This document shows positions 1 to 14,271 of a DNA stretch of 46,701 nt, piece after piece. Origin of the DNA: Bacteroidales bacterium (GTDB lineage: Bacteria; Bacteroidota; Bacteroidia; Bacteroidales; JAIPAP01); NCBI GenBank assembly GCA_021740045.1, contig JAIPAP010000015.1, forward strand, positions 1 to 46,701. Reading direction: 5' to 3'. Each line of letters starts with the position of its first letter. Positions within the stretch are counted from its first letter, which is position 1. Both the position numbers and the translations under genes were made by a program. The notes below the pieces were generated by a model. The model was given only the letters and a program-made list of their open reading frames with translations. It had not been told where the DNA came from and did no database searches.

Positions 1-1346
1 TGACGTTCCTCACGCCGGGATTTTTTCTCCGAATCCCGCAATTCATTAACATTACGGGTGAGCTTTTCATTGGTCTGTTTTAAGCTGTTGATGTAATCGT
101 CTTTTGATCGCAATGAAAAGGTCAGGCACATTTCGGGCTTGGCCAGACCTTTGGCAACCGAACGGGCAAACTCACCACAGCTTTCAAAGCCACATGATTC
201 GCATCCAATATTCTCACCCGGTTTGCGCCCAATAAGCTTCAGCACTTCATTCACCTTTTCCTTCGCCGGTTCCGGCAATCGCTGGTCATCGTTTTGAAAT
301 TCCGTCTTCAGGTCGAGCTTGGAGTATTCTCCCATATGCCCCTGCCAGGCTTTATGATCAAAATCCATTAAGCGCTTATTGGCATAATCGGTTACCAGTG
401 AGCGCCGAAGGTATTTCTCGCCTCCCGGCGAAGTCCCCGGCCCCATTATGCATCCTTCGTTATAAAATACATTAATATGTTTCCTGATCTGTTCGGTATG
501 CTGTTCAAATTGTTCAACAGCATGGAGGGCATTGCGCTTTCCTTCGGCAGTAACCACGGTTCCCTCAAGCAAGTCTTCACTGATATCACCGGCTTGTAAA
601 ATCCCGTTACTAATGGGATATAGTGACCCCTTGTATCCGATGGGAGGATCGAAATCGGAATACTCCAGGCGGCTTTCTTCGATATGGTTCTCGGTAAATA
701 GCTCCCTTAGCTCCCTGAAGGTTAGCACCGCATTCACATAAGCATCTCCTTCATAACGCCTGGCTTCTTCTTTTGTGGCGATACAGGCCCCGATGAAAAC
801 CACCTTTAGATCTTTCCCATACTTTTTCCGTACCACTTTGGCTGTGGCGATCATGGGTGATACGATGGGTGACAGGTTATCGAGCAGGTCGGGATGGAAC
901 TTTTCCACATAGGCCACCATAGCCGGACAATTCGCCGTGATGTAATATTTCCCCCTGAAATCATCAAATAGTTGCTTGTATTCTTTAGCCACCAGGTCAA
1001 CCCCAAACGAAACCTCGCTCACGTATTCAAAACCCAGCGCCCTGATCATCTCCACAAATTTGCGGTAGTCGGTTATATCGCCGAATTCTCCCGAAATACT
1101 GGGATCTACAATAGCAGCAACTTCCTCTTTGCCTTTCAACAGATCATTCACTTCCTTTTTTGACTTTCGATAGCTAATGGCATCATCGGCGCAAACGCCA
1201 AGACAACTCCCACAGCCAATACACCGGTCATGAATCACCTTTGGGAAACCATTCTCATGTTCCAGGGTTATCGCCCTTACCGGACAGGAGTTAATACAGG
1301 CCTGGCATTGGGTACATTTTTCTTTATCGATGCGGATCAAATCCAT
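1..1346 (-). CDS. Sensory-type [FeFe]-hydrogenase homologue (partial, runs off left edge)
   Basis: The reverse strand translates from ATG at 1344-1346 for 448 codons to the window edge without a stop. Residues 11-54 hold two 4Fe-4S ferredoxin motifs (CTQCQACINSC, CIGCGSCLGVC). An H-cluster domain follows, with L1 TANCPAM (Cys140), L2 GACIATKEEAR (Cys188) and L3 FYNEGCIMGPG (Cys299). A further CxxCGxxxC iron-sulfur motif (CESCGFESC) and the start of a charged, helical linker come after it. This order matches the sensory (group C/D-like) hydrogenases, which usually continue into a PAS, kinase or phosphatase output domain; that part is outside the window. The residue that should be the first L3 cysteine is Tyr295, so the cubane lacks one expected ligand. 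The proton-relay cysteine before Cys140 is Asn139. A catalytic role is doubtful; redox or hydrogen sensing is inferred. It follows the ferredoxin-like gene by 8 bp. Confidence 0.85.
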   Translation of the reverse strand, partial: MDLIRIDKEKCTQCQACINSCPVRAITLEHENGFPKVIHDRCIGCGSCLGVCADDAISYRKSKKEVNDLLKGKEEVAAIVDPSISGEFGDITDYRKFVEMIRALGFEYVSEVSFGVDLVAKEYKQLFDDFRGKYYITANCPAMVAYVEKFHPDLLDNLSPIVSPMIATAKVVRKKYGKDLKVVFIGACIATKEEARRYEGDAYVNAVLTFRELRELFTENHIEESRLEYSDFDPPIGYKGSLYPISNGILQAGDISEDLLEGTVVTAEGKRNALHAVEQFEQHTEQIRKHINVFYNEGCIMGPGTSPGGEKYLRRSLVTDYANKRLMDFDHKAWQGHMGEYSKLDLKTEFQNDDQRLPEPAKEKVNEVLKLIGRKPGENIGCESCGFESCGEFARSVAKGLAKPEMCLTFSLRSKDDYINSLKQTNEKLTRNVNELRDSEKKSRREER

Positions 1347-1354
1347 AACTGGCC

Positions 1355-1615
1355 TCAATTGTTAGGGTTGAAAAAATTATCCAAAATACTGCTTACATTT
1401 TCAGGAGTAACCTGCTCGTAAATCCGGTCGTTGATCTTAAGCACCGGCCCTTTATCACAATCGGAAAAACAATGGTTTCCGTGAAAATAAACACTATCCT
1501 CCAATTGATACCGCTTAAGGTAATCGCTGATCGCACGCAGGGTTTGTTTATTTCCTCTTGAAAAACAGGAACTTCCCAGGCAAATCACAATTTCATAGGG
1601 TTTGGTGCTGCTCAT
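1355..1615 (-). CDS. Thioredoxin-like [2Fe-2S] ferredoxin (NuoE/HydC C-terminal-like)
   Basis: This 86-residue protein consists only of the thioredoxin-fold 2Fe-2S domain seen at the C terminus of NuoE-type subunits. The four probable ligands are visible as CLGSSC (C-x4-C) and CFSDC (C-x3-C), followed by GPVLKINDRIY, the usual strand after the cluster. It is the first gene of the leftward unit and lies just upstream of the sensory hydrogenase homologue, so it probably passes electrons to or from that protein. The 60-odd bases before its start lead into the shared divergent regulatory region. The family assignment is firm. The partner is inferred from position. Confidence 0.85.
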   Translation of the reverse strand: MSSTKPYEIVICLGSSCFSRGNKQTLRAISDYLKRYQLEDSVYFHGNHCFSDCDKGPVLKINDRIYEQVTPENVSSILDNFFNPNN

Positions 1616-1861: not shown

Positions 1862-1963
1862 CGAAATATCAATTATATGTTTATATAATTTGATCATCAG
1901 CAATTTGCGGATGAATAATGATTATTGGTTAAAAATAGTAAATATTTATCATTTAGAAGTGTC

Positions 1964-2428
1964 ATGGATAACCCTTTAGACCGCATATTAAAACAATACC
2001 CCAATACCAGGCGCGATAATTTACTTCCATTATTGCAGGATATTCATGATTCCCTGGGATATCTTTCGGAAGAGTCCATCATTAAAGTGAGTCAACACTT
2101 ATCATTACCTTCCAGCAAGGTATACGGGGTAGCCACTTTTTTCGATCAGTTTCATTTTGAACCACAGGCCCATTTTGTGATCCGGATATGCTCCGGAACC
2201 TCATGCCACCTTAGTGGCTCAGCCGAGATAATGGATGAATTTAAAAAAACGCTCAATATCAGGCCGGGCCAAACCACACGCGATGGCGTTTTCAGATTAG
2301 AAGAAGTACCTTGCCTGGGAGCTTGCGGCCTGTCTCCCATTGTGGAAGTTAACGGTGAATCCCACACCGGTTTCTCCGTTCAACAGATTGCCGACCTAGT
2401 TGAAGCTTGTAAAGAAAATGTTGCTTGA
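1964..2428 (+). CDS. hydC: NADH-linked [FeFe]-hydrogenase subunit C (NuoE-like, [2Fe-2S])
   Basis: This is the NuoE-type thioredoxin-fold subunit of a trimeric [FeFe] hydrogenase; it holds a 2Fe-2S cluster and feeds electrons to or from the flavin subunit. An N-terminal helical bundle contains the family signature LPLLQDIHDSLGYLSEESI. The cluster ligands are CSGTSC and, 40 residues later, CLGAC. I chose ATG 1964, which gives 154 residues beginning MDNPLDRI. The longer frame from TTG 1925 adds 13 residues that do not look conserved. The last codons overlap the alternative TTG start of the next gene, and the real ATG of hydB follows 2 bp after the stop, so translation is probably coupled. Confidence 0.9.
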   Translation: MDNPLDRILKQYPNTRRDNLLPLLQDIHDSLGYLSEESIIKVSQHLSLPSSKVYGVATFFDQFHFEPQAHFVIRICSGTSCHLSGSAEIMDEFKKTLNIRPGQTTRDGVFRLEEVPCLGACGLSPIVEVNGESHTGFSVQQIADLVEACKENVA

Positions 2429-2430
2429 TT

Positions 2431-4380
2431 ATGGAAAAAACCCTATCCGACACATATAAGGACATTCTGATCAACGAGGTGTTGAATAACCCGGATAAGA
2501 AGTTTAACGACAATACGAATAACTTGCTCTCCGCACTTCGCCGTGATACTATCGACCGTCCTGTTATTTTCGTGGGCAAAGGCAGTTGCGGAGTAATTGC
2601 CGGAGCTAATGGCACCTATGATGCTGTAAAAGAATATATTTCGGCAAGGAGTATCAATGCCGAATTACTGGAGGTGGGTTGCGGCGGTTTTTGTGCTGCC
2701 GAGCCTGTTGTAGAAGTTCAGTTACCGGGCAGAAGTCGCATAGCTTTCCAACAAGTAATGGCTGATCAGGTGGACCACTTTTTGGATCAAATCTTCAATA
2801 ACATCCTCGACCGCGAAAAAGCTGTAGCTCAATACCGGAATCAATACCATGAACCCTGGGAGGGTATTCCGTTTTTGGATGAGTTGCCATTTTTCGCCCA
2901 CCAAAAGCGGATTGTATTGGATCAATGCGGATTGATCAACCCCGAGCGTATTGAGGACTACATTGCCCGCGAAGGTTACCAGGCTTTCATAAAAACCATT
3001 CGTAACTATACGGCTGAGTATCTTTGTTCATTAGTGGAAGAAAGTCAACTTCGTGGACGTGGTGGCGGCGGTTTTCCGGCCGGTAAAAAATGGCGAAGCG
3101 CGCTCAAAACCGCCAGTGACAAGAAATATGTGATCTGCAACGCCGATGAAAGCGATCCCGGCGCTTTTATGGACCGTTCCATTATGGAAGGGAATCCCCA
3201 CCGGCTTATTGAAGGGATAGCCATTGCAGCCTATGCCATCGATGCCAGCAAGGCATACATTTACACTAAAGCTGAATATAGCCTGGCCCTTTACCGATTG
3301 GAAAATGCCATTCAGCAAGCTAAGGAATTCGGCTTGTTGGGCGAAGATATTTTCGAAAGCGGTTTCAACCTGAATATTGAGATCAGGAAAAGTGCCGGCG
3401 CCTTTGTGTGTGGTGAAGAAACCGCCCTTATCAGCACCATTGAAGGAAGAAGAGGCATGCCCTCACCCAAGCCCCCCTACCCTTCTGAAAAAGGGCTTTT
3501 CGGAAAACCTACTATTGTAAATAATGTTGAAACACTGGCAAATGTCCCGGCGATCATTCACAACGGGCCCCAATGGTTCAACAGGATCGGGACGGAAACC
3601 AGTAAAGGGACCAAACTATTTTCCTTAACCGGAAAAGTAAAGCACACTGGGCTTATCGAGGTGGAAATGGGTACCAGTCTGCAAGACATTATCGACAAGA
3701 TCGGAGGGGGCATCAGAAATGACAAAGAAGTAAAAGCCATTCATCTTGGTGGACCAACCGGTTCAACCATCCCTCCCCAGCATTTCGACACGCCCGTTTG
3801 CTTTGAAGCCCTTAAAAAAGTCAATACTCTTATGGGATCGGGTGGAATGGTAATTTTGGATGAGGATTCCTGCATGGTGGATATGGCCAAGTTTTTCATG
3901 GATTTTATCCGAAAGGAAAGCTGTGGCAAGTGCATCCCCTGTCGTGAAGGGACGCTCCGTATTCATGAGATTCTCGAAAACATCACCCGCCGGCCCGAGC
4001 ATGAATCGGGGCATCAAACCCTGGAGCGCTTCAAAGGGGTGATGCAATTGGAAGGGCTTGCAGAGGTAATCAGGGATACTTCATTGTGCGGTTTGGGAAA
4101 GACAGCCCCCAGCCCGGTCTTATCCACCATGAAGTGGTTCAGGCATGAATACGAAGAGCATATTTTCGACCGCAAATGCAAGGCGGGTGTATGTAAACAA
4201 CTAAGAAGCTTCTATATCGATGTGGATAAATGTACCGGATGCATGATATGTGCAAAAAAATGTCCGGTGAATGCCATTATAGGATCGGAAAAGAAACCTC
4301 ATTTTATCATTGATGAAAAATGTATTGGATGTGGCATTTGCCTGGATGTGTGTAAATTCAACGCTGTTTACGTAAAATAA
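2431..4380 (+). CDS. hydB: NADH-linked [FeFe]-hydrogenase subunit B (NuoF-like, FMN, 4Fe-4S)
   Basis: This 649-residue NuoF-type subunit binds NAD(H) and FMN and is the likely bifurcation site in trimeric HydABC enzymes. In order it has a thioredoxin-like N domain (about 43-130), the NuoF core with the FMN/NADH loop GRGGGGFPAGKKW (about 210) and CNADESDPGAF (about 238), the N3-type cluster motif SCGKCIPCREG (about 500), and two C-terminal ferredoxin clusters (CTGCMICAKKC, CIGCGICLDVC). The N domain has only three cysteines at the expected sites (Cys53, Cys84, Cys88), where related subunits have four, so its 2Fe-2S cluster is uncertain. ATG 2431 is preferred over the in-frame TTG 2425, which overlaps hydC. 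Whether the complex bifurcates with ferredoxin or is simply NAD-dependent cannot be read from the sequence. Confidence 0.92.
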   Translation: MEKTLSDTYKDILINEVLNNPDKKFNDNTNNLLSALRRDTIDRPVIFVGKGSCGVIAGANGTYDAVKEYISARSINAELLEVGCGGFCAAEPVVEVQLPGRSRIAFQQVMADQVDHFLDQIFNNILDREKAVAQYRNQYHEPWEGIPFLDELPFFAHQKRIVLDQCGLINPERIEDYIAREGYQAFIKTIRNYTAEYLCSLVEESQLRGRGGGGFPAGKKWRSALKTASDKKYVICNADESDPGAFMDRSIMEGNPHRLIEGIAIAAYAIDASKAYIYTKAEYSLALYRLENAIQQAKEFGLLGEDIFESGFNLNIEIRKSAGAFVCGEETALISTIEGRRGMPSPKPPYPSEKGLFGKPTIVNNVETLANVPAIIHNGPQWFNRIGTETSKGTKLFSLTGKVKHTGLIEVEMGTSLQDIIDKIGGGIRNDKEVKAIHLGGPTGSTIPPQHFDTPVCFEALKKVNTLMGSGGMVILDEDSCMVDMAKFFMDFIRKESCGKCIPCREGTLRIHEILENITRRPEHESGHQTLERFKGVMQLEGLAEVIRDTSLCGLGKTAPSPVLSTMKWFRHEYEEHIFDRKCKAGVCKQLRSFYIDVDKCTGCMICAKKCPVNAIIGSEKKPHFIIDEKCIGCGICLDVCKFNAVYVK

Positions 4381-4407: not shown

Positions 4408-6132
4408 ATGGATTTTGAAATAGAAGTTAACAACCGCAAAATAACAGCTCACCAAGGTGAGACCATATTATCGGCTTTGCACCGGAACGGCATACAGGTT
4501 CCCACGCTATGCCATATGGAAAACTTCACGCCCACCGGAGCATGCCGTATGTGCATGGTGGAGGTTGAAGGAAAGTCCGATCTTATCCCGGCCTGTTCTC
4601 ATCCGGTGGAAGAGTGGATGAAACTAAAAACGCATTCACCACGGGTGGTAAAAGCCCGCAAAACCATTGTGGAATTACTGTTGGCCAACCATCCCGATGA
4701 TTGCCTGTTTTGCGTGCGCAATAATAACTGTGAGCTTCAAACCCTTGCTGCCGAACTAAATGTAAGGGAACGCCGTTTCCCGGGCAAAAAGGAAAAGCAT
4801 AAGATCGATCCATCAAGCACCAGCATATTCCGCGATCCTGAAAAATGCATTTTATGTGGTCGCTGCGTAAGGGTTTGCGAAGAAACCATAGGCGTTTCAA
4901 CGGTTGATTTTATCGGCAGGGGCCATTCCACTATTATTGGACCCACATTTAATAAATCACTTAATCTTTCCAATTGCATCAATTGCGGGCAATGCATCAG
5001 GGCCTGCCCTACCGGGGCATTGCATGAGAAAAGCCATTTCCCCGAGCTACAGGAAGCTCTTCATAATCCCGATATACAGGTGGTTGTCCAATACTCTCCT
5101 TCGATACCCGTAACGCTTGCCGAGGAATTCGGTATGAAAGCGGGAAAAGACATCAACGGAATACTCAATGGGATTTTGCGGAAAATAGGGTTTGATAAAA
5201 TATTCGACACCGCCTTTGCCGCCGATCTTTACACTGTGGAATTGGCTGCCGAACTGCAACAGCGCATTGATTCAGATGAGCAACTCCCCCTTTTCACCAG
5301 CGATTGCCCGGGATGGGTCAAATACGTCGAGCAATTCCGCCAAAATCTGCTGCCAAATATCTCACATTGCAAATCCCCACAGCAGATGATGGGAACCCTC
5401 ATTAAACAGCATTATGCTAAAGAAGCGGGTATTTCACCGGACAAGATCTATTCGGTAAGCCTGATGCCTTGCACGGCCAAAAAGTTCGAAGCCCAGCGCG
5501 AGGAAATGACCCATAAAGGCATATCTGAAGTCGACGCCGTGCTTACTACACGTGAACTTGCCGCATTTATCAAACTAAACGGTATTGATGTGAGTGATAT
5601 TGAAACCGAATTTTCGGATAAACCTTATGGTGAAAAAAGTTCGGCCGGTAAAATATACGGTGTGAGCGGCGGTGTAACCGAATCGGTAATGCGGACTCTG
5701 TATTACAAAAACATGGGGCGTGAATTAACGCCCAAAAAAGTCAAAAAAGCTCGCGGCAGTAAGGGACAACGGGAAGGTTCACTCAAGATGAAGAACCTGG
5801 AATTGCATTACGCGATAATCAATGGTATGGGTCATGCTAAAGAACTGCTTGACGAAATTGAAAAGGGCGAGAGCAAATATCATTTTATTGAGGTCATGGC
5901 TTGTCCGGGTGGTTGTGTAAACGGTGGCGGACAGCCCATCGACTCCCGCAAGGAAGACATTAAAGCAAGGGGAAAGGAATTATACAAGATTGATGATCAG
6001 AGCAGTATCAACAGGGCGCACCGTAATCCTCATCTCGATTCATTGTATGAAAACTTACTGGAAGCACCCAGGAGCGAGATCAGCAGCCGCCTGTTGCATA
6101 CCACTTATAAGAAGCGCGATGTTTTACCCTAG
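4408..6132 (+). CDS. hydA: [FeFe]-hydrogenase catalytic subunit A
   Basis: This is the catalytic subunit for reversible H2 production or uptake, 574 residues. The N terminus has a plant-type 2Fe-2S domain (CHMENFTPTGACRMC, residues 35-49), then a His-Cys3 4Fe-4S site (HPDDCLFC...C, 95-108) and two ferredoxin clusters (147-157, 190-200). The H-cluster loops are L1 FTSDCPGW (Cys300), L2 MPCTAKKFEAQR (Cys355) and L3 EVMACPGGCVNGGGQP (Cys499, Cys503); all four cubane ligands are present. The usual TSCCPGW proton-relay cysteine is replaced by Asp299 (codon 5302-5304). Domain order fits the group A enzymes that partner NuoE/NuoF-type subunits. It has no extra C-terminal 2Fe-2S domain, unlike the longer Thermotoga-type subunits. 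It follows hydB by 27 bp in one operon. Confidence 0.95.
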   Translation: MDFEIEVNNRKITAHQGETILSALHRNGIQVPTLCHMENFTPTGACRMCMVEVEGKSDLIPACSHPVEEWMKLKTHSPRVVKARKTIVELLLANHPDDCLFCVRNNNCELQTLAAELNVRERRFPGKKEKHKIDPSSTSIFRDPEKCILCGRCVRVCEETIGVSTVDFIGRGHSTIIGPTFNKSLNLSNCINCGQCIRACPTGALHEKSHFPELQEALHNPDIQVVVQYSPSIPVTLAEEFGMKAGKDINGILNGILRKIGFDKIFDTAFAADLYTVELAAELQQRIDSDEQLPLFTSDCPGWVKYVEQFRQNLLPNISHCKSPQQMMGTLIKQHYAKEAGISPDKIYSVSLMPCTAKKFEAQREEMTHKGISEVDAVLTTRELAAFIKLNGIDVSDIETEFSDKPYGEKSSAGKIYGVSGGVTESVMRTLYYKNMGRELTPKKVKKARGSKGQREGSLKMKNLELHYAIINGMGHAKELLDEIEKGESKYHFIEVMACPGGCVNGGGQPIDSRKEDIKARGKELYKIDDQSSINRAHRNPHLDSLYENLLEAPRSEISSRLLHTTYKKRDVLP

Positions 6133-6153: not shown

Positions 6154-8190
6154 ATGAGCCACTCCAGCAGAAAACAGCTTGTTACAACCGTGAAAGACCG
6201 ATGCCGGGTATGTTATACCTGTGTAAGGGAATGTCCGGCCAAGGCAATCAAGATCATCAATGGGCAGGCCGAGGTACTGAGTGAGCGCTGCATTGGTTGC
6301 GGTAACTGTGTAAAGGTTTGTAGTCAGAATGCCAAGATCATTCTGAATTCGATTCAGGAGGTGTACGATTTGCTGAATTCCGATAGTAAGGTTGCTGCTA
6401 TCATTGCCCCCAGTTTTCCGGCCGAGTTTTCGGAGATAGAAGACCATACCGTAATGGTGGGCATGATCAAAAAATTAGGGTTCGATTACGTATCGGAAGT
6501 TTCTTTTGGCGCCGATATGGTGGCCAATGAATACAAAAAGATACTGAAGGAAGGACATGCCAAGCCGACTATATCATCCGATTGCCCGGGCATTGTGTTT
6601 TATGTTGAACATTACCATCCTAAGCTTGTGCCCTCGCTGGCAACTATAGCATCGCCCATGGTAGCTATGACACGCATCATGAAAAAAAAATACGGCAGCA
6701 ACACCAGGGTAGTGTTTATTGGTCCGTGCATTGCAAAAAAGGCCGAATCGGATGAAGTGGATGATGCCATTACCTTTAAAGAACTTAGGGAAATGCTGGA
6801 AACCAATAACATCAATCCCGAAACGGTTACTCCCTATGATTTTGATCCGCCCAAAGCCGGAAAAGGAGCTATTTTCCCGGTAAGTCGCGGATTACTTCAA
6901 ACGGTGGATGTAAAAGAAGATATTTGTGAAGGCAGTATCCTGGTTGCCGATGGGCGGGTAAACTTCGGTATCGCCATCAAGGAATGGGAAAGCGGTTACA
7001 TCAGCGATCAGCATCTCGAACTGCTTTGCTGCAAGGGTTGTATAATGGGACCTGGCATGTCGGCTAGTTCTCAGCGTTATTCCAGGCGTACCCGTATCAG
7101 CCAGTATGTTCGGAATAAGCTGGAACGCCTCGATCAGCAAGAATGGAAACAGTATGTTGAAGAATTCAGCGCTGTGGATTTTTCGCAGGAATTTCGCCCT
7201 ATCGACCGCCGGATACGCACGCCCTTGCGCAGCGATATTGATAAGGTACTCAAATCGATGGGTAAATTCGAGCCTAAAGATCATCTAAACTGCGGCGCAT
7301 GTGGTTATGAGACCTGTAAAGAACATGCTGTTGCTATTGTTCAGGGTTTGGCCGAAAATGAGATGTGTCTTCCCTACACCATCGAAAAACTGCACAACTA
7401 CATCAGCGAGTTGAATATTTCGAATGAAAAGCTGGCCTCCACCCGTCAGCAGTTGATGCAGTCGGAAAAGCTGGCCAGCATGGGACAGCTCTCGGCAGGA
7501 ATTGCCCATGAGTTGAATAATCCGCTGGGGGTTATCATGATGTACAGCAACATCCTGAAAGATGAAATGGAAGAAGGTAATCCTTATCGCAATGACCTGG
7601 AGCTGATTGTAGAGCAGGCTGACCGGTGCAAGAAGATCGTGAGCGGGTTGCTCAACTTTGCCCGGAAAAGCCAGGTGAATTATGTGGAAACCGACTTCCA
7701 TGCCTTTGTGCAACGTAGCCTTGAATCCATGATTAAACCCGATAATGTTGAATTGGAATTCAAATCGAACCTGTTCAGCAAAAATGTGATGATCGATAAG
7801 GAGCAAATGATGCAGGTGCTGACCAACCTGGAGAAAAATGCCGTGGAAGCTATGCCTGATCAAGGCGGTAAGATTGAAATAACCTTGGAGGGGAATCCTG
7901 AAGAGGTTATCTTCACCATCAGTGACACGGGAACCGGTATTTCGAAGGAAAACATGGAAAAGATCTTTACGCCCTTCTTCACTACCAAAGGCATTGGTAA
8001 GGGCACCGGCCTGGGACTGCCGCTCATATACGGCATTGTAAAAATGCATAAGGGACAAATTTCAGTCGATTCCAATGCCGACCCGGATCAAGGTCCTACA
8101 GGTACAACATTTTCTTTACGACTTCCGCGTCAGAATTACAATAAGCAGGAAGTTAAAAAAGACCCGGTTGAATATGGTAAAGAGCAATAA
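6154..8190 (+). CDS. Sensory [FeFe]-hydrogenase fused to histidine kinase
   Basis: This 678-residue fusion probably senses H2 or redox state and signals by phosphotransfer. Residues 17-56 carry two 4Fe-4S clusters. The H-cluster domain has L1 SSDCPGI (Cys144), L2 GPCIAKKAE (Cys192) and L3 LLCCKGCIMGPG (Cys292, Cys296), so all four cubane ligands are kept, but the loops diverge from catalytic HydA as in group C sensors. Asp143 replaces the relay cysteine. A third iron-sulfur motif (CGACGYETC, 380-388) is followed by a coiled linker. The kinase has an H-box with His452 (GIAHELNNPLG), an N-box (NLEKNAVEAM) and G boxes (DTGTGIS, GTGLGL). No PAS domain is obvious, since the linker is short. It starts 21 bp after hydA, and two receiver proteins follow, so the three form a plausible phosphorelay. 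Confidence 0.9.
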   Translation: MSHSSRKQLVTTVKDRCRVCYTCVRECPAKAIKIINGQAEVLSERCIGCGNCVKVCSQNAKIILNSIQEVYDLLNSDSKVAAIIAPSFPAEFSEIEDHTVMVGMIKKLGFDYVSEVSFGADMVANEYKKILKEGHAKPTISSDCPGIVFYVEHYHPKLVPSLATIASPMVAMTRIMKKKYGSNTRVVFIGPCIAKKAESDEVDDAITFKELREMLETNNINPETVTPYDFDPPKAGKGAIFPVSRGLLQTVDVKEDICEGSILVADGRVNFGIAIKEWESGYISDQHLELLCCKGCIMGPGMSASSQRYSRRTRISQYVRNKLERLDQQEWKQYVEEFSAVDFSQEFRPIDRRIRTPLRSDIDKVLKSMGKFEPKDHLNCGACGYETCKEHAVAIVQGLAENEMCLPYTIEKLHNYISELNISNEKLASTRQQLMQSEKLASMGQLSAGIAHELNNPLGVIMMYSNILKDEMEEGNPYRNDLELIVEQADRCKKIVSGLLNFARKSQVNYVETDFHAFVQRSLESMIKPDNVELEFKSNLFSKNVMIDKEQMMQVLTNLEKNAVEAMPDQGGKIEITLEGNPEEVIFTISDTGTGISKENMEKIFTPFFTTKGIGKGTGLGLPLIYGIVKMHKGQISVDSNADPDQGPTGTTFSLRLPRQNYNKQEVKKDPVEYGKEQ

Positions 8191-8200
8191 TAGGAGACAG

Positions 8201-8617
8201 ATGAATACATTTAACGAAAAAACATATATGAGCAAGAAGAGAATTTTGATTGTGGATGATGACATGGATTACCTTTTTCAGTTAAAAACCAAGGTGGAAC
8301 AATTTGGATTTGAAACCATCACGGCCGAAAGTCAGCTGGAAGCAGAGGAGTTGATTGTGCAAACTAAACCCGACCTGGCTATTCTTGATCTGATGATGGA
8401 AAACGAGGACAGTGGTTTTATCCTGAGCCGGAAACTAAAAAGCAAATACCCGGATGTTCCCATCATTATTGCCACAGGGGTAACTGCTGAAACAGGCATG
8501 GACTTCAGCGTTAGCGGCGAATCGGATAAGCAATGGATCAAAGCCGACCTCTTTCTCGACAAAGGCATCCGGGCGGATCAATTACAGCGTGAAATCAATA
8601 AATTGCTCAAGCTTTAA
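8201..8617 (+). CDS. Single-domain response regulator (receiver)
   Basis: This CheY-like receiver of about 130 residues has the acidic pair in ILIVDDDMDY, the phospho-acceptor Asp in LAILDLMMENE, and Thr in the IATGVT switch strand. It has no output domain. The start is uncertain: ATG 8201 has AGGAG four bases upstream and gives nine extra residues, while ATG 8228 gives the usual MSKKRILIVDDD beginning. It lies 10 bp after the hydrogenase-kinase gene and 2 bp before the receiver-kinase hybrid. It most likely relays phosphate from the first kinase, but its final target is unknown. Confidence 0.9.
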   Translation: MNTFNEKTYMSKKRILIVDDDMDYLFQLKTKVEQFGFETITAESQLEAEELIVQTKPDLAILDLMMENEDSGFILSRKLKSKYPDVPIIIATGVTAETGMDFSVSGESDKQWIKADLFLDKGIRADQLQREINKLLKL

Positions 8618-8619
8618 CC

Positions 8620-9738
8620 ATGGCGAATTTTAAAATATTGGTGGTTGATGATGAAATGGGGATCAGGGCAGGAGCTCAGCGTATCCTTAAAAATTTCACT
8701 GTGGATTATCCCTTTATGGACGAGGAAATTAATTTTGAAGTGCTGGAAGCTGCCACCGGTGAAGAGTCCATCGATATCATCGACAATGATAAACCCGATA
8801 TTATATTGCTCGACAATAAACTCCCCGGCATTCAGGGCATAGAAGTTCTGAAATATATCAAACAAAAACAATACGACATTTATGTGGTGATGATCACCTC
8901 TTACGCTTCACTTGAACTGGCGGTGAAAGCCACCAAAGACGGGGCTTTGGATTTCATCCCAAAACCTTTTACGCCCAAGGAGCTCCGGTCATCCATCGAA
9001 AATATTACCAAACAATTATTCCTGAAACGGATGACCCAAAAGCTTAACAAGGAAGGTAAGCAAATCCGGTTTCAGTTCCTGTCGGTGCTTTCACATGAAT
9101 TAAAAGCCCCCCTCAATGCGGTGGAAGGATATTTGACCATGATGAAAGAAAAACAGCTTGGCGACCAGGTGGAAAACTATAACGAAGCCATCGACCGGTC
9201 AATGGAGCGCTTAAAAGGCATGCGAGGCCTGATAAAAGACCTGCTCGACTTAACCAAGATCGAAACCGGTAAACCAACCCAGAAACTCAAGCAAATTCAA
9301 CTGGAGAAAATTGCCCGTTCATCAGTGGAAACCTTTAAACCATATGCCATACAAAAAGATGTTGACATCTATTTAAATACCAGCGATTCCATCAACATGA
9401 AAGCCGATCCCGAAGAAATGGAGATCATTTTTAACAATTTGATCTCAAATGCTGTTAAATACAACAAAGATGGTGGAAGAGTGGATATTGGTATAAAAAA
9501 CGGAGAAAACAGCATTAGTATAAAGGTTTCCGATACAGGCATCGGCATGGAACAGCAGGAAGTTGACAAGTTATTCCAGGATTTTTACCGTATTAAGAGC
9601 ACCAAAACCAAGCATATTAGTGGTAGTGGATTGGGTTTGTCAATCGTAAAAAAAATAGTCGATCTATATGAGGGTGAAATACAGGTAGAGAGCGAACCGG
9701 AAAAAGGCAGTACATTTTTTGTAGTATTTCCGAAATAA
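8620..9738 (+). CDS. Receiver-histidine kinase hybrid
   Basis: This 372-residue protein has an N-terminal receiver (about 1-125; KILVVDDE, phospho-acceptor in IILLDNKLPG, conserved Lys in FIPKPF). A HisKA domain follows with H-box FLSVLSHELKAPLNAVEGY near residue 160, then a HATPase domain (N-box NNLISNAVKYN, DTGIGM, GSGLGLSIVKKIV). There is no membrane segment, so it is a soluble relay component. Receiver-first architecture suggests that it is controlled by phosphate from the upstream sensory hydrogenase kinase rather than by a direct ligand. It is the last gene of the hydrogenase operon. The downstream output is not in the window unless it acts on the leftward sensory unit. Confidence 0.9.
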   Translation: MANFKILVVDDEMGIRAGAQRILKNFTVDYPFMDEEINFEVLEAATGEESIDIIDNDKPDIILLDNKLPGIQGIEVLKYIKQKQYDIYVVMITSYASLELAVKATKDGALDFIPKPFTPKELRSSIENITKQLFLKRMTQKLNKEGKQIRFQFLSVLSHELKAPLNAVEGYLTMMKEKQLGDQVENYNEAIDRSMERLKGMRGLIKDLLDLTKIETGKPTQKLKQIQLEKIARSSVETFKPYAIQKDVDIYLNTSDSINMKADPEEMEIIFNNLISNAVKYNKDGGRVDIGIKNGENSISIKVSDTGIGMEQQEVDKLFQDFYRIKSTKTKHISGSGLGLSIVKKIVDLYEGEIQVESEPEKGSTFFVVFPK

Positions 9739-9817: not shown

Positions 9818-10444
9818 ATGAAAAGACTTCCGGATAAAACAGTAGAACGACTGAGCCAATACAGGAGGGCTCTGTTGATCAGTCATTCACAAGGAAAACA
9901 ACACATATTCTCACATGAATTGGCCAAGTTGTTGCATATCACACCTGTACAGGTGCGGCGCGATATTATGCTGATCGGTTATTCGGGAACACTGCGCAAA
10001 GGCTATAATGTTGCCGAACTTATTGAATTGATCGGAAAGATCATTGATACTGAAGAAGGTTTACAGGTTGCCGCAATCGGTATTGGTAATCTTGGGCGAG
10101 CTATTATCAAATATTTTAAGGGAAAAAGAACCAAGCTCAATATTGTTGCAGCTTTTGATACCAACCCGGAAAAAGTGAACCGCCTTTATGCCGGAGTTCA
10201 ATGCTATCATGTGGAAAAGCTCACCGAGGTGATTAAAGAGAAAGATATTAGCATTGGGTTGATCACGGTGCCGGCTTCGGAAACAGCCGAGGTTGCCGAA
10301 ACATTGGTAAAGGCAGGCATAAGGGGAATACTTAACTACACGCCCACCCCGCTAAATGTACCTGATCATGTTTACCTGGAAGAATACGATATGATCACCT
10401 CACTGGAAAAGGTGGCTTATTTTGTAAAGAAACAAGCAAACTAG
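9818..10444 (+). CDS. rex: Redox-sensing transcriptional repressor Rex
   Basis: This 208-residue Rex protein binds DNA when NADH/NAD+ is low and is released by NADH. The N-terminal winged helix (about 1-80) has the family signature LLHITPVQVRRDIMLIGYSG. The Rossmann domain follows with GIGNLGRAIIKYF and the Asp of FDTNPEKV for the cofactor ribose. The C-terminal helix (YLEEYDMITSLEKVAYFVKK) is the usual domain-swapped dimerisation arm. It follows the kinase hybrid after 79 bp of AT-rich DNA in which I saw no convincing Rex site. The operator-like sequences before hydC and before the hydG unit are its likely local targets. Confidence 0.95.
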   Translation: MKRLPDKTVERLSQYRRALLISHSQGKQHIFSHELAKLLHITPVQVRRDIMLIGYSGTLRKGYNVAELIELIGKIIDTEEGLQVAAIGIGNLGRAIIKYFKGKRTKLNIVAAFDTNPEKVNRLYAGVQCYHVEKLTEVIKEKDISIGLITVPASETAEVAETLVKAGIRGILNYTPTPLNVPDHVYLEEYDMITSLEKVAYFVKKQAN

Positions 10445-12834: not shown

Positions 12835-14271
12835 ATGATATTTACACCCGAAGAACTCAAGATCAAGGATGAAAGTATGAAGCCTTTCATCGACCCGGAA
12901 GAGATACAGGAAACATTGAATAGCACCTTATCCTCACCTGAAAAGGTAAGGGAGGTTATTCAGAAATCGCTGAACAAAAGCCGGCTAACCCTCGAAGATA
13001 CTGCTGTGCTCCTCAACGCCAACGATCCCGAGCTCATTGAAGAGATCAAGGAAGGCGCCCGCACCCTGAAGGAGCGGGTCTATGGCAACCGTATTGTGCT
13101 TTTTGCCCCGCTTTATGTGGGTAATAAATGCACCAACAACTGCAGCTACTGTGGATTCAGGGTTTCCAATAAAGAAGCTGTCCGTAAAACCCTGAGCGAC
13201 GAGGAAATCGAACAGGAAGTGGAAGCTCTCGAAGACAACGGGCAGAAGCGTTTGATCCTTGTATATGGTGAACACCCCGATTACGATGCGGATTATATAG
13301 CCCATACCGTTAACACGGTTTATAAAGTAAAGAAAGGCAATGGAGAAATACGGCGTGTGAATATCAATGCAGCGCCGTTAAGCATCGAAGGCTTTAAAAA
13401 AGTGCATGAAGCAGGAATTGGCACCTACCAGATCTTTCAGGAAACCTATCATCCCGAAACCTACCGCCATTACCACCTGGGAGGCAAAAAACGGGATTTC
13501 GATTACCGCCTCACTTCCCTCGACCGTGCCATGGAAGCCGGCATCGATGATGTAGGCATAGGGGCTTTGTTTGGCTTATACGACTGGAAATACGAAGTAT
13601 TGGGGTTGGTTCGCCATACCAATCACCTGGAAGCATGCTATGGTGTGGGGCCCCACACCATCTCTTTCCCCCGTATACAGGATGCTTCGACGCTGAACTG
13701 GAACCGCGAGCACATTGTTTCGGATGAAGATTTTACCCGTTTGGTGGCTATTCTCCGCCTGGCTGTGCCCTACACCGGCCTGATCCTCACCGCCCGCGAG
13801 AATCCCAACATCCGCAAGGAAGTAATGCATTTTGGCGTATCGCAGATTGATGGCGGCACCAAACTGGAGCTGGGCAGCTATTCCCAATCCTTAAACGAAG
13901 ATCAAAACCTGAACAAGGAGCAGTTTTTGATCAATGATTCACGCTCATTGAACGAGATCATTGATGAATTGCTCACCGATGGATATCTACCCTCCTTCTG
14001 CACGGCATGTTATCGGCTGGGGCGGACCGGTGAGCATTTTATGGAATTTTCCGTTCCCGGCTTTATCAAACGATACTGTTCCCCCAATGCAATCTTAACC
14101 CTGAGTGAATACCTGGTTGACTACGCACCGCAGGAGACCAAAGAAAAGGGCTGGAAGGTCATCGAAAAAAACCTTCAAGACCTGGAAAAGGCAAAGGAAA
14201 AGGTGAACACCAGCGAAATTCGCCGGAGGATCGAACGCATCAAACAAGGTGAGCGGGACCTGTATTTCTAA
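12835..14271 (+). CDS. hydG: [FeFe]-hydrogenase H-cluster maturase HydG (radical SAM)
   Basis: This 478-residue HydG cleaves tyrosine to provide CO and CN- ligands for the H-cluster. The radical-SAM CxxxCxxC motif is CTNNCSYC (about residue 99). The C-terminal region carries the auxiliary cluster motif CTACYRLGRTGEHFMEF followed by a later Cys (KRYCSPN), as expected for the cluster that builds the Fe(CO)2CN synthon. Length and order match known HydG. HydE and HydF, also needed for maturation, are absent from the window and must be elsewhere if the hydrogenases here are active. Confidence 0.95.
   Translation: MIFTPEELKIKDESMKPFIDPEEIQETLNSTLSSPEKVREVIQKSLNKSRLTLEDTAVLLNANDPELIEEIKEGARTLKERVYGNRIVLFAPLYVGNKCTNNCSYCGFRVSNKEAVRKTLSDEEIEQEVEALEDNGQKRLILVYGEHPDYDADYIAHTVNTVYKVKKGNGEIRRVNINAAPLSIEGFKKVHEAGIGTYQIFQETYHPETYRHYHLGGKKRDFDYRLTSLDRAMEAGIDDVGIGALFGLYDWKYEVLGLVRHTNHLEACYGVGPHTISFPRIQDASTLNWNREHIVSDEDFTRLVAILRLAVPYTGLILTARENPNIRKEVMHFGVSQIDGGTKLELGSYSQSLNEDQNLNKEQFLINDSRSLNEIIDELLTDGYLPSFCTACYRLGRTGEHFMEFSVPGFIKRYCSPNAILTLSEYLVDYAPQETKEKGWKVIEKNLQDLEKAKEKVNTSEIRRRIERIKQGERDLYF

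Follow-up and report, generated by a model that had tools for sequence, protein, structure and literature searches.

Replacement of the proton-donor cysteine by aspartate in a Bacteroidota HydABC-type hydrogenase, and loss of the proton pathway in its clade

The cysteine that donates protons to the H-cluster has been described as strictly conserved among [FeFe]-hydrogenases with catalytic activity (PMC9563086), which raises the question of what a HydA that carries an aspartate in its place could be doing. Such a gene lies in the window analyzed here, a stretch of 46,701 nucleotides from a Bacteroidales bacterium (contig JAIPAP010000015.1, assembly GCA_021740045.1), where it encodes the hydrogenase subunit of a HydABC-type trimer. 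An earlier reading of the sequence (referred to as the original prediction) suggested that the aspartate may work as a natural proton relay with altered pH or oxygen behavior. We found that a second pathway residue is also replaced in this HydA, and that the proton pathway was repeatedly lost in the clade to which it belongs, while the cysteine ligands of the metal clusters were kept. Our favored explanation, to which we give a probability of roughly one half, is that the HydABC complex of the window has been freed from fast H2 turnover yet stays under purifying selection and, next to a conserved hydrogenase-kinase, probably serves as a slow H2/redox module with sensor-like properties. Previous work has described HydABC, C299D mutants, and sensory hydrogenases; searches of open-access papers gave no report of a trimeric group A HydA clade in which the pathway is lost.

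The proton pathway of the window HydA

The open reading frame (ORF) of HydA encodes 574 amino acids. The gene and the codons of its pathway positions are:

4408..6132, + strand: HydA, M3-type [FeFe]-hydrogenase subunit of a HydABC-type trimer (Pfam PF02906, Fer2_4, NADH-G_4Fe-4S_3, Fe_hyd_SSU; TIGR02512)
5242..5244, + strand: TTG codon, Leu279, in place of the second relay glutamate (CpI E279)
5251..5253, + strand: GAA codon, Glu282, the outer relay residue, kept
5302..5304, + strand: GAT codon, Asp299, in place of the proton-donor cysteine (CpI C299)
5362..5364: TCA codon, S319, kept

Residue numbers in the window HydA equal those of CpI from about 209 to 510, and alignments with PDB sequences place its Asp299 on CpI 299, so the Cys-to-Asp change put forward in the original prediction is real. 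It is not readily explained by chance or a simple read error, because two base changes are needed, the frame is open, and Asp recurs in seven non-redundant relatives, with five Asp/non-Asp changes on the tree. Although the genome assembly is in draft form, with 161 contigs, a sequencing error, an assembly error, or a pseudogene is hardly credible: the frames are open across the operon, both Asp299 and Leu279 are shared with relatives, and a related pair of Asp-bearing genes is under strong purifying selection (see below). Leu279 is a second relay change that had escaped the original prediction; the residue is Glu in CpI and in all 78 compared sequences outside the clade described below. The group A pathway C299-E279-S319-E282 is therefore broken at two positions, and positions 279/282/299/319 read L/E/D/S. 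As predicted, all four H-cluster ligands (C300, C355, C499, and C503) are present, and so are K358, M353, M497, E361, S323, P231, and Q325.

By family profiles the protein belongs to group A (TIGR02512, 445.7 bits against a cut-off of 405.95), and it scores 729 bits, under the cut-off of 765, with NF040763, the profile of NADH-dependent [FeFe]-hydrogenases of group A6. Its partners HydB and HydC, with a flavin-type domain and cluster cysteines by Pfam and motif counts, are those of a HydABC of group A3. The best sequence match in the PDB is HydA of Thermoanaerobacter kivui from a trimeric HydABC of group A3 (PDB 8a6t, E 8.8e-162), which has the same domain order and all cluster ligands. An AlphaFold2 model of the window HydA (mean predicted local distance difference test score 82.4, predicted template modeling score 0.75) matches its fold with Z 52.1 over 533 residues; the root-mean-square deviation is 15.0, owing to a different placement of the N-terminal cluster domains. 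However, T. kivui HydA has the pathway cysteine and both glutamates, whereas the window HydA has D299 and L279. Another group A3 HydA, that of Bacteroides thetaiotaomicron, is described in a passage of PMC12578642 as having low activity in one set-up.

The closest precedent for the substitution itself is the engineered CpI C299D (PDB 6glz and 8pvm; 6glz is the best-scoring CpI chain for the window HydA), which differs in that E279 is kept and the enzyme is monomeric. In excerpts of PMC6226526, C299D variants of CpI and HydA1 retain 30-90% activity, E279A/Q and C299A/S fall below 1%, and E282A is only mildly affected; a saturation screen likewise found Asp to be the one replacement keeping high activity (PMC3485046). 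Engineered Cys-to-Asp enzymes thus keep part of their activity, as had been stated. The crystal structure of CpI C299D shows the carboxyl hydrogen-bonded to the H-cluster amine and to a conserved water, and the authors stress that the pathway is otherwise intact (PMC6226526, same excerpts), which does not hold for the window HydA with its Leu279. The suggestion of altered oxygen behavior finds no support in this literature, as the oxygen half-life of Clostridium acetobutylicum HydA C298D equals that of the wild type in the relevant part of PMC3485046.

Pathway loss within one Bacteroidota clade

To place the window HydA, 295 genomes of its order were searched, 183 of which gave matches with E of 1e-60 or lower, and its relatives were taken from 30 loci of this search and 80 further loci obtained by coordinates; two duplicates of the window (L003 and L004) were excluded from the comparison. 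In a tree of 112 rows, built with the pathway columns removed, these sequences form two sister groups, clade I with 42 rows and clade II with 56 rows including the window. All 42 rows of clade I have E279, E282, C299, S319, M353, K358, and F417, positions that vary in clade II. Among the best 80 loci of the matches listed, the 43 not labeled Bacteroidota (two of them without a phylum) are all pathway-intact, and 17 of the 37 Bacteroidota loci are altered. From these 80 loci, 45 (the 37 from Bacteroidota and eight others) entered a combined tree, which after removal of eight rows more than 97% identical (157 to 149) was built with ten pathway and pocket columns excluded, in a short search with Shimodaira-Hasegawa-like approximate likelihood ratio test (SH-aLRT) support only. 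Clade II comprises 71 rows in this tree, again including the window HydA (SH-aLRT 97), and would by these sequences be a Bacteroidota-restricted clade. The counts below refer to this 149-row alignment.

Within clade II, E279 is lost in 62 of 71 rows, E282 in 28, and C299 in 38, where it is replaced by Ser (10), Asp (8), Ala (8), Asn (4), His (4), Leu (2), Arg (1), or Phe (1). Either E279 or C299 is lost in 66/71, and at least one of the residues 279, 282, 299, and 319 in 70/71, with Thr for Ser at 319 scored as kept. No pathway loss occurs in the 78 rows outside clade II, every one of which has both E279 and C299. The count of Asp versus Cys that was proposed along with the original prediction thus yields eight Asp among the 38 losses of C299 in clade II, and Cys in 78/78 elsewhere. 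On the tree, position 299 underwent at least 15 Cys/non-Cys changes and E279 at least six. Meanwhile, the ligand cysteines 300, 355, 499, and 503 are present in 71/71 rows of clade II, the cysteines of the other clusters in 100%, and the ferredoxin-type cluster cysteines and His95 are retained. Of 99 columns near-invariant outside clade II, the nine most changed inside it are A427, T275, A230, E279, V423, M327, G408, F417, and T297, and C299 ranks twelfth. Set against the fully kept ligand cysteines, this ranking indicates that the losses concentrate on the H-cluster pocket and the proton path. Bifurcating-type HydAs with Ser at ligand position 300, in a TSCSPGW motif, are L001, L107-L112, and L115, as well as 11 of the 78 rows outside clade II; Ser is a residue that an excerpt of PMC11406978 describes as common there.

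The pocket has also changed around the pathway. M353 is present in 39/71 rows of clade II and replaced in 32, and K358 is present in 41/71; replacement of M353 by Ser or Thr (25/71) is found in 23 of the 38 rows that lost C299 vs. 2 of the 33 that kept it, and the covariation of 299 with 353 and 358 is strong by counts, though not significant on independent branches. The most eroded HydAs, L106 and L113, have Leu299, Gln353, Gly358, Leu361, and Thr497 with the four ligand cysteines kept, and may no longer bind the [2Fe] part of the H-cluster. Such erosion leads to one alternative, that the hydrogenase domain is being lost and that, of the H-cluster, just the [4Fe-4S] half remains in use, so that the complex would be an electron wire (NADH, ferredoxin, or the kinase HydS) without H2 chemistry. 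The four cysteines prove a [4Fe-4S] site only, and the frequent loss of K358 and M353, extending to E361 and M497 in L106 and L113, agrees with this possibility; yet the window HydA retains the whole set of pocket residues listed above, M497 and E361 included, and a maturase gene, hydG, lies in the window, so that we consider an electron wire quite improbable here.

A second alternative is that clade II moves protons along another path, as has been suggested for group D (TamHydS E252/E289), with turnover that can be substantial. In its favor, a serine has been gained at 230 in 49/71 rows of clade II, at a position that adjoins the [2Fe] site by CpI numbering. However, no residue is newly conserved in at least 70% of clade II and rare in clade I, Ser230 staying just below that level, and ionizable gains in over half of clade II occur only at 206 and 288, with mixed identities. 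A conserved replacement pathway was therefore rejected at the 70% level, with Ser230 borderline and the gains at 206 and 288 weak, and an alternative route seems distinctly unlikely.

The eight proteins with Asp299 bear most directly on the proposed relay. Six of them (L007, which is the window, L012, L015, L016, L020, and L063) lack E279, and the other two (L078 and L080) lack E282. M353 is kept in 6/8 Asp-bearers vs. 2/30 proteins with other replacements, and Lys or Arg occupies 358 in 8/8, and for these reasons Asp marks the mildest stage of replacement at 299, which agrees with its outcome in the saturation screen (PMC3485046). The well-kept pocket also speaks for the view that Asp299 works as a natural relay, in which case the protein would be a normal NADH-coupled hydrogenase whose pH optimum is lower or which favors H2 evolution, with water spanning the E279 gap. 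Against it stand the loss of one or the other glutamate in every Asp-bearer, and CpI E279A, for which the excerpted text of PMC6226526 describes no extra water across the gap. Even the 11 rows of the window's own subclade do not all carry Asp at column 299, which changed three times among them. A pattern of Asp299 with both glutamates was found in 0/395 genomes of the phylum, compared with 19/395 for its Cys version, by a search that also required Met277 and so covers just part of the family. With eight different residues at column 299 among close relatives, the variation looks less like the result of selecting a carboxylate relay than like a constraint that has been lifted. The proposed relay is thus partly supported, in that the substitution is natural and the mildest one; a selected relay as the leading explanation was rejected on Leu279 and the mixed replacements at 299, and we regard it as unlikely. 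A further observation in the window subclade concerns residue 476, which is His or Tyr in its five Asp-bearers, Asn in its six Cys-bearers, and Asn in 71/78 rows outside clade II; as a conserved Asp-specific partner it was dismissed, since the pattern is absent from the other three Asp-bearers.

Operon type, second hydrogenases, and constraint

The genes around hydA in the window are:

3..1358, - strand: HydS2, divergent second sensory hydrogenase-like protein, truncated by the contig end (ORF; PF02906 at 438-1124)
1355..1615, - strand: Fd2 (name given here), small four-Cys protein, gene partner of HydS2 (ORF; recurs with HydS2)
1925..2428, + strand: HydC, NuoE-like [2Fe-2S] subunit (PF01257)
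2425..4380, + strand: HydB, NuoF-like flavin subunit with C-terminal ferredoxin clusters (PF01512, PF10589, Fer4)
6154..8190, + strand: HydS, sensory hydrogenase domain fused to a histidine kinase (PF02906, FeS, HisKA, HATPase_c)
8075..8617, + strand: response regulator, receiver domain alone (PF00072)
8620..9738, + strand: receiver and histidine kinase protein (PF00072, PF00512, PF02518)
9818..10444, + strand: Rex-like NAD(H)-sensing repressor, name inferred from domains (PF06971, PF02629)
12835..14271, + strand: HydG, H-cluster maturase (TIGR03955, 516.5 bits, cut-off 312.15)

The gene for HydF is elsewhere in the genome, outside the window. At the position equivalent to HydA 299, HydS also has an aspartate (Asp143, GAT at 6580-6582), which the original prediction had pointed out as a parallel next door. 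The residue is indeed present, but it is the norm in this Bacteroidota kinase family (33/36 beside the intact HydA clade and 43/48 beside the altered one), and therefore no local coincidence with HydA. HydS2 has Asn at the C299 position (TANCPAM).

The two clades differ in operon type. Among loci with enough flanking sequence (4,000 bases or more upstream of HydA, or 4,600 or more downstream), the divergent HydS2 is typical of clade II operons (41/47 vs. 0/32 in clade I), as is Rex downstream (43/47 vs. 4/31), and HydS follows HydA in both (45/53 in clade II and 36/39 in clade I). None of the genomes (42 with clade I, 55 with clade II) has both clades. Another full-strength HydA was found in 54/55 clade II genomes and 24/42 clade I genomes, and one particular type (L002-type) in 52/55 vs. 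0/42, the types being separated by match length alone. One clade I match whose length fits the L002 type (G259:C796) is a fragment at the end of a contig and was not counted; conversely, G088 falls in this range with a HydA (L100) that is not of L002 type by sequence, which makes the count 52 rather than 53. The clade II genomes without the L002 type are this G088, whose different HydA is pathway-intact, G129 (78% complete), with only a TSCSP type, and G060 (70% complete), with none. The type was confirmed by sequence in 29 of 30 genomes tried, all 29 being pathway-intact (TSCCPGW in 20 and TSCCPAW in 9).

The window genome itself has two more HydAs, with the motifs TSCCPAW and TSCSPGW, on another contig (C90), the former of the L002 type. 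They belong to a canonical hydrogenase cluster (L295, 9359-19870) consisting of HydC, HydA (TSCCPAW), HydB, a small ATPase, PHP-like and sensory genes, and HydA (TSCSPGW), in which the product names other than those of hydrogenase genes were assigned by eye.

Constraint is uneven across the operon. Of the columns invariant in clade I, clade II retains 0.793 in HydA (183 columns), 0.805 in HydB (253), 0.688 in HydC (54), and 0.982 in HydS (184). In nine genome pairs, the rate of nonsynonymous substitution (dN) of clade II HydA is higher than in the L002-type HydA by a factor of 1.9 to 3.5; the synonymous rate (dS) of HydA is saturated in eight of the nine, and the sole unsaturated pair, L015 and L016, both with Asp299, has a dN of 0.02 and a dS of 0.67. 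For the last three pairs, the values of HydS (identity 0.30-0.36) probably stem from a wrong or truncated ORF and were not used. By these retention rates and substitution comparisons, the kinase is held, the trimer has relaxed, and the hydA gene is not dead.

HydB of clade II keeps its C-terminal cluster cysteines in 53/53 rows, varies in parts of the flavin-type motif (Gly215, for instance, is kept in 35/53), and has lost N-terminal cysteines in up to 20/53; the glycine-rich motif of flavin mononucleotide type is intact in the window HydB, and its residue 243 is Ser in place of Gly. This Ser243, in a DEGDPGA stretch near the flavin site, occurs in 52/53 rows of clade II (Gly in clade I), and is a possible marker of altered flavin chemistry.

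A possible slow sensing role

That the proton wire was repeatedly lost while the metal-cluster sites were kept suggests a slow sensing or regulating role for clade II rather than fast H2 turnover. Under our favored explanation, the group A pathway of the window HydA would have been dismantled at two stations (C299 to Asp and E279 to Leu), with the H-cluster ligands and iron-sulfur wiring left in place, and repeated pathway loss would have come after, or alongside, the presence in these genomes of a separate HydABC whose pathway is intact. In an assembled H-cluster, Asp299 would probably still hydrogen-bond the bridgehead amine, as in the CpI C299D structure, and take up the proton from H2 splitting, and Leu279 would hinder its quick exit, resulting in slow turnover. 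Together with its neighbors in the locus (HydS, HydS2, and the Rex-like repressor), the complex may then respond to H2, NAD(H), and ferredoxin as a slow module of sensor-like or gating character, whose long-lived redox state could be read by the locus either via HydS or via NAD(H) and Rex. More tentatively, and with clearly less confidence, HydABC may have turned in this one Bacteroidota clade into a third, independently evolved H2/redox sensor, wired to NAD(H) and ferredoxin, in which a deliberately slow H-cluster signals to HydS and works together with Rex while the separate HydABC does the catalysis.

Several observations weigh against a slow sensing module. The associations with operon type and second HydA come down to a contrast between two clades, i.e., few independent events. 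Rex is also found upstream beside pathway-intact HydABC in other phyla and, as noted, downstream in 4/31 clade I loci, both of which weaken it as a marker of clade II. One clade II member, L165, combines the operon type of the clade with an intact pathway, and four others (L183, L189, L103, and L105) keep both E279 and C299 and have lost E282, a loss whose CpI counterpart E282A is mild (PMC6226526, as excerpted). An independent-pairs test for C299/M353 was not significant (6 pairs, median p 0.25). In addition, M353 and K358 are still present in the window HydA, and the low conservation of the trimer could also mean that a redundant enzyme is simply decaying.

An H-cluster without the group A path has precedents in group C and D enzymes, including the putative sensors TmHydS and TamHydS, which lack the group A pathway residues and keep the H-cluster ligands (excerpts of PMC8163306, PMC10055695, and PMC10407848). 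Part of clade II resembles group D further in the replacement of M353 by Ser or Thr, which a passage of PMC8163306 gives as typical of group D putative sensors. The window HydA shares the loss of the group A pathway with these enzymes only in part: C299 and E279 are absent, S319 and E282 present. Unlike them, it is a group A protein in a trimer with flavin and NuoE-like subunits, it keeps M353, M497, and K358, and it has no sensory output domain of its own: it terminates in Fe_hyd_SSU rather than in an extra cluster and output domain, and a domain search at 1e-3 gave no match to FeS, PAS, or kinase domains.

Clade II provides many natural versions of the pathway (Asp, Ser, Asn, His, Ala, Leu, Arg, or Phe at 299, with or without E279) in a group A scaffold, with intact sister enzymes as controls. 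These natural sequences make it testable how fast an H-cluster runs without its wire, and how catalytic hydrogenases turn into sensors. They also call for caution in annotation, as a trimeric HydA gene need not imply H2 production.

A gene arrangement similar to that of the window is known in Hydrogenedentota, where a BfuABC sub-type with a group C3 "T" subunit has HydABC genes beside a PAS/kinase sensory hydrogenase (PMC11406978, in part). Its P1 motif, xTSCxPxWx in the same source, keeps the cysteine that the window HydA has lost, and the three Hydrogenedentota loci examined here are all pathway-intact.
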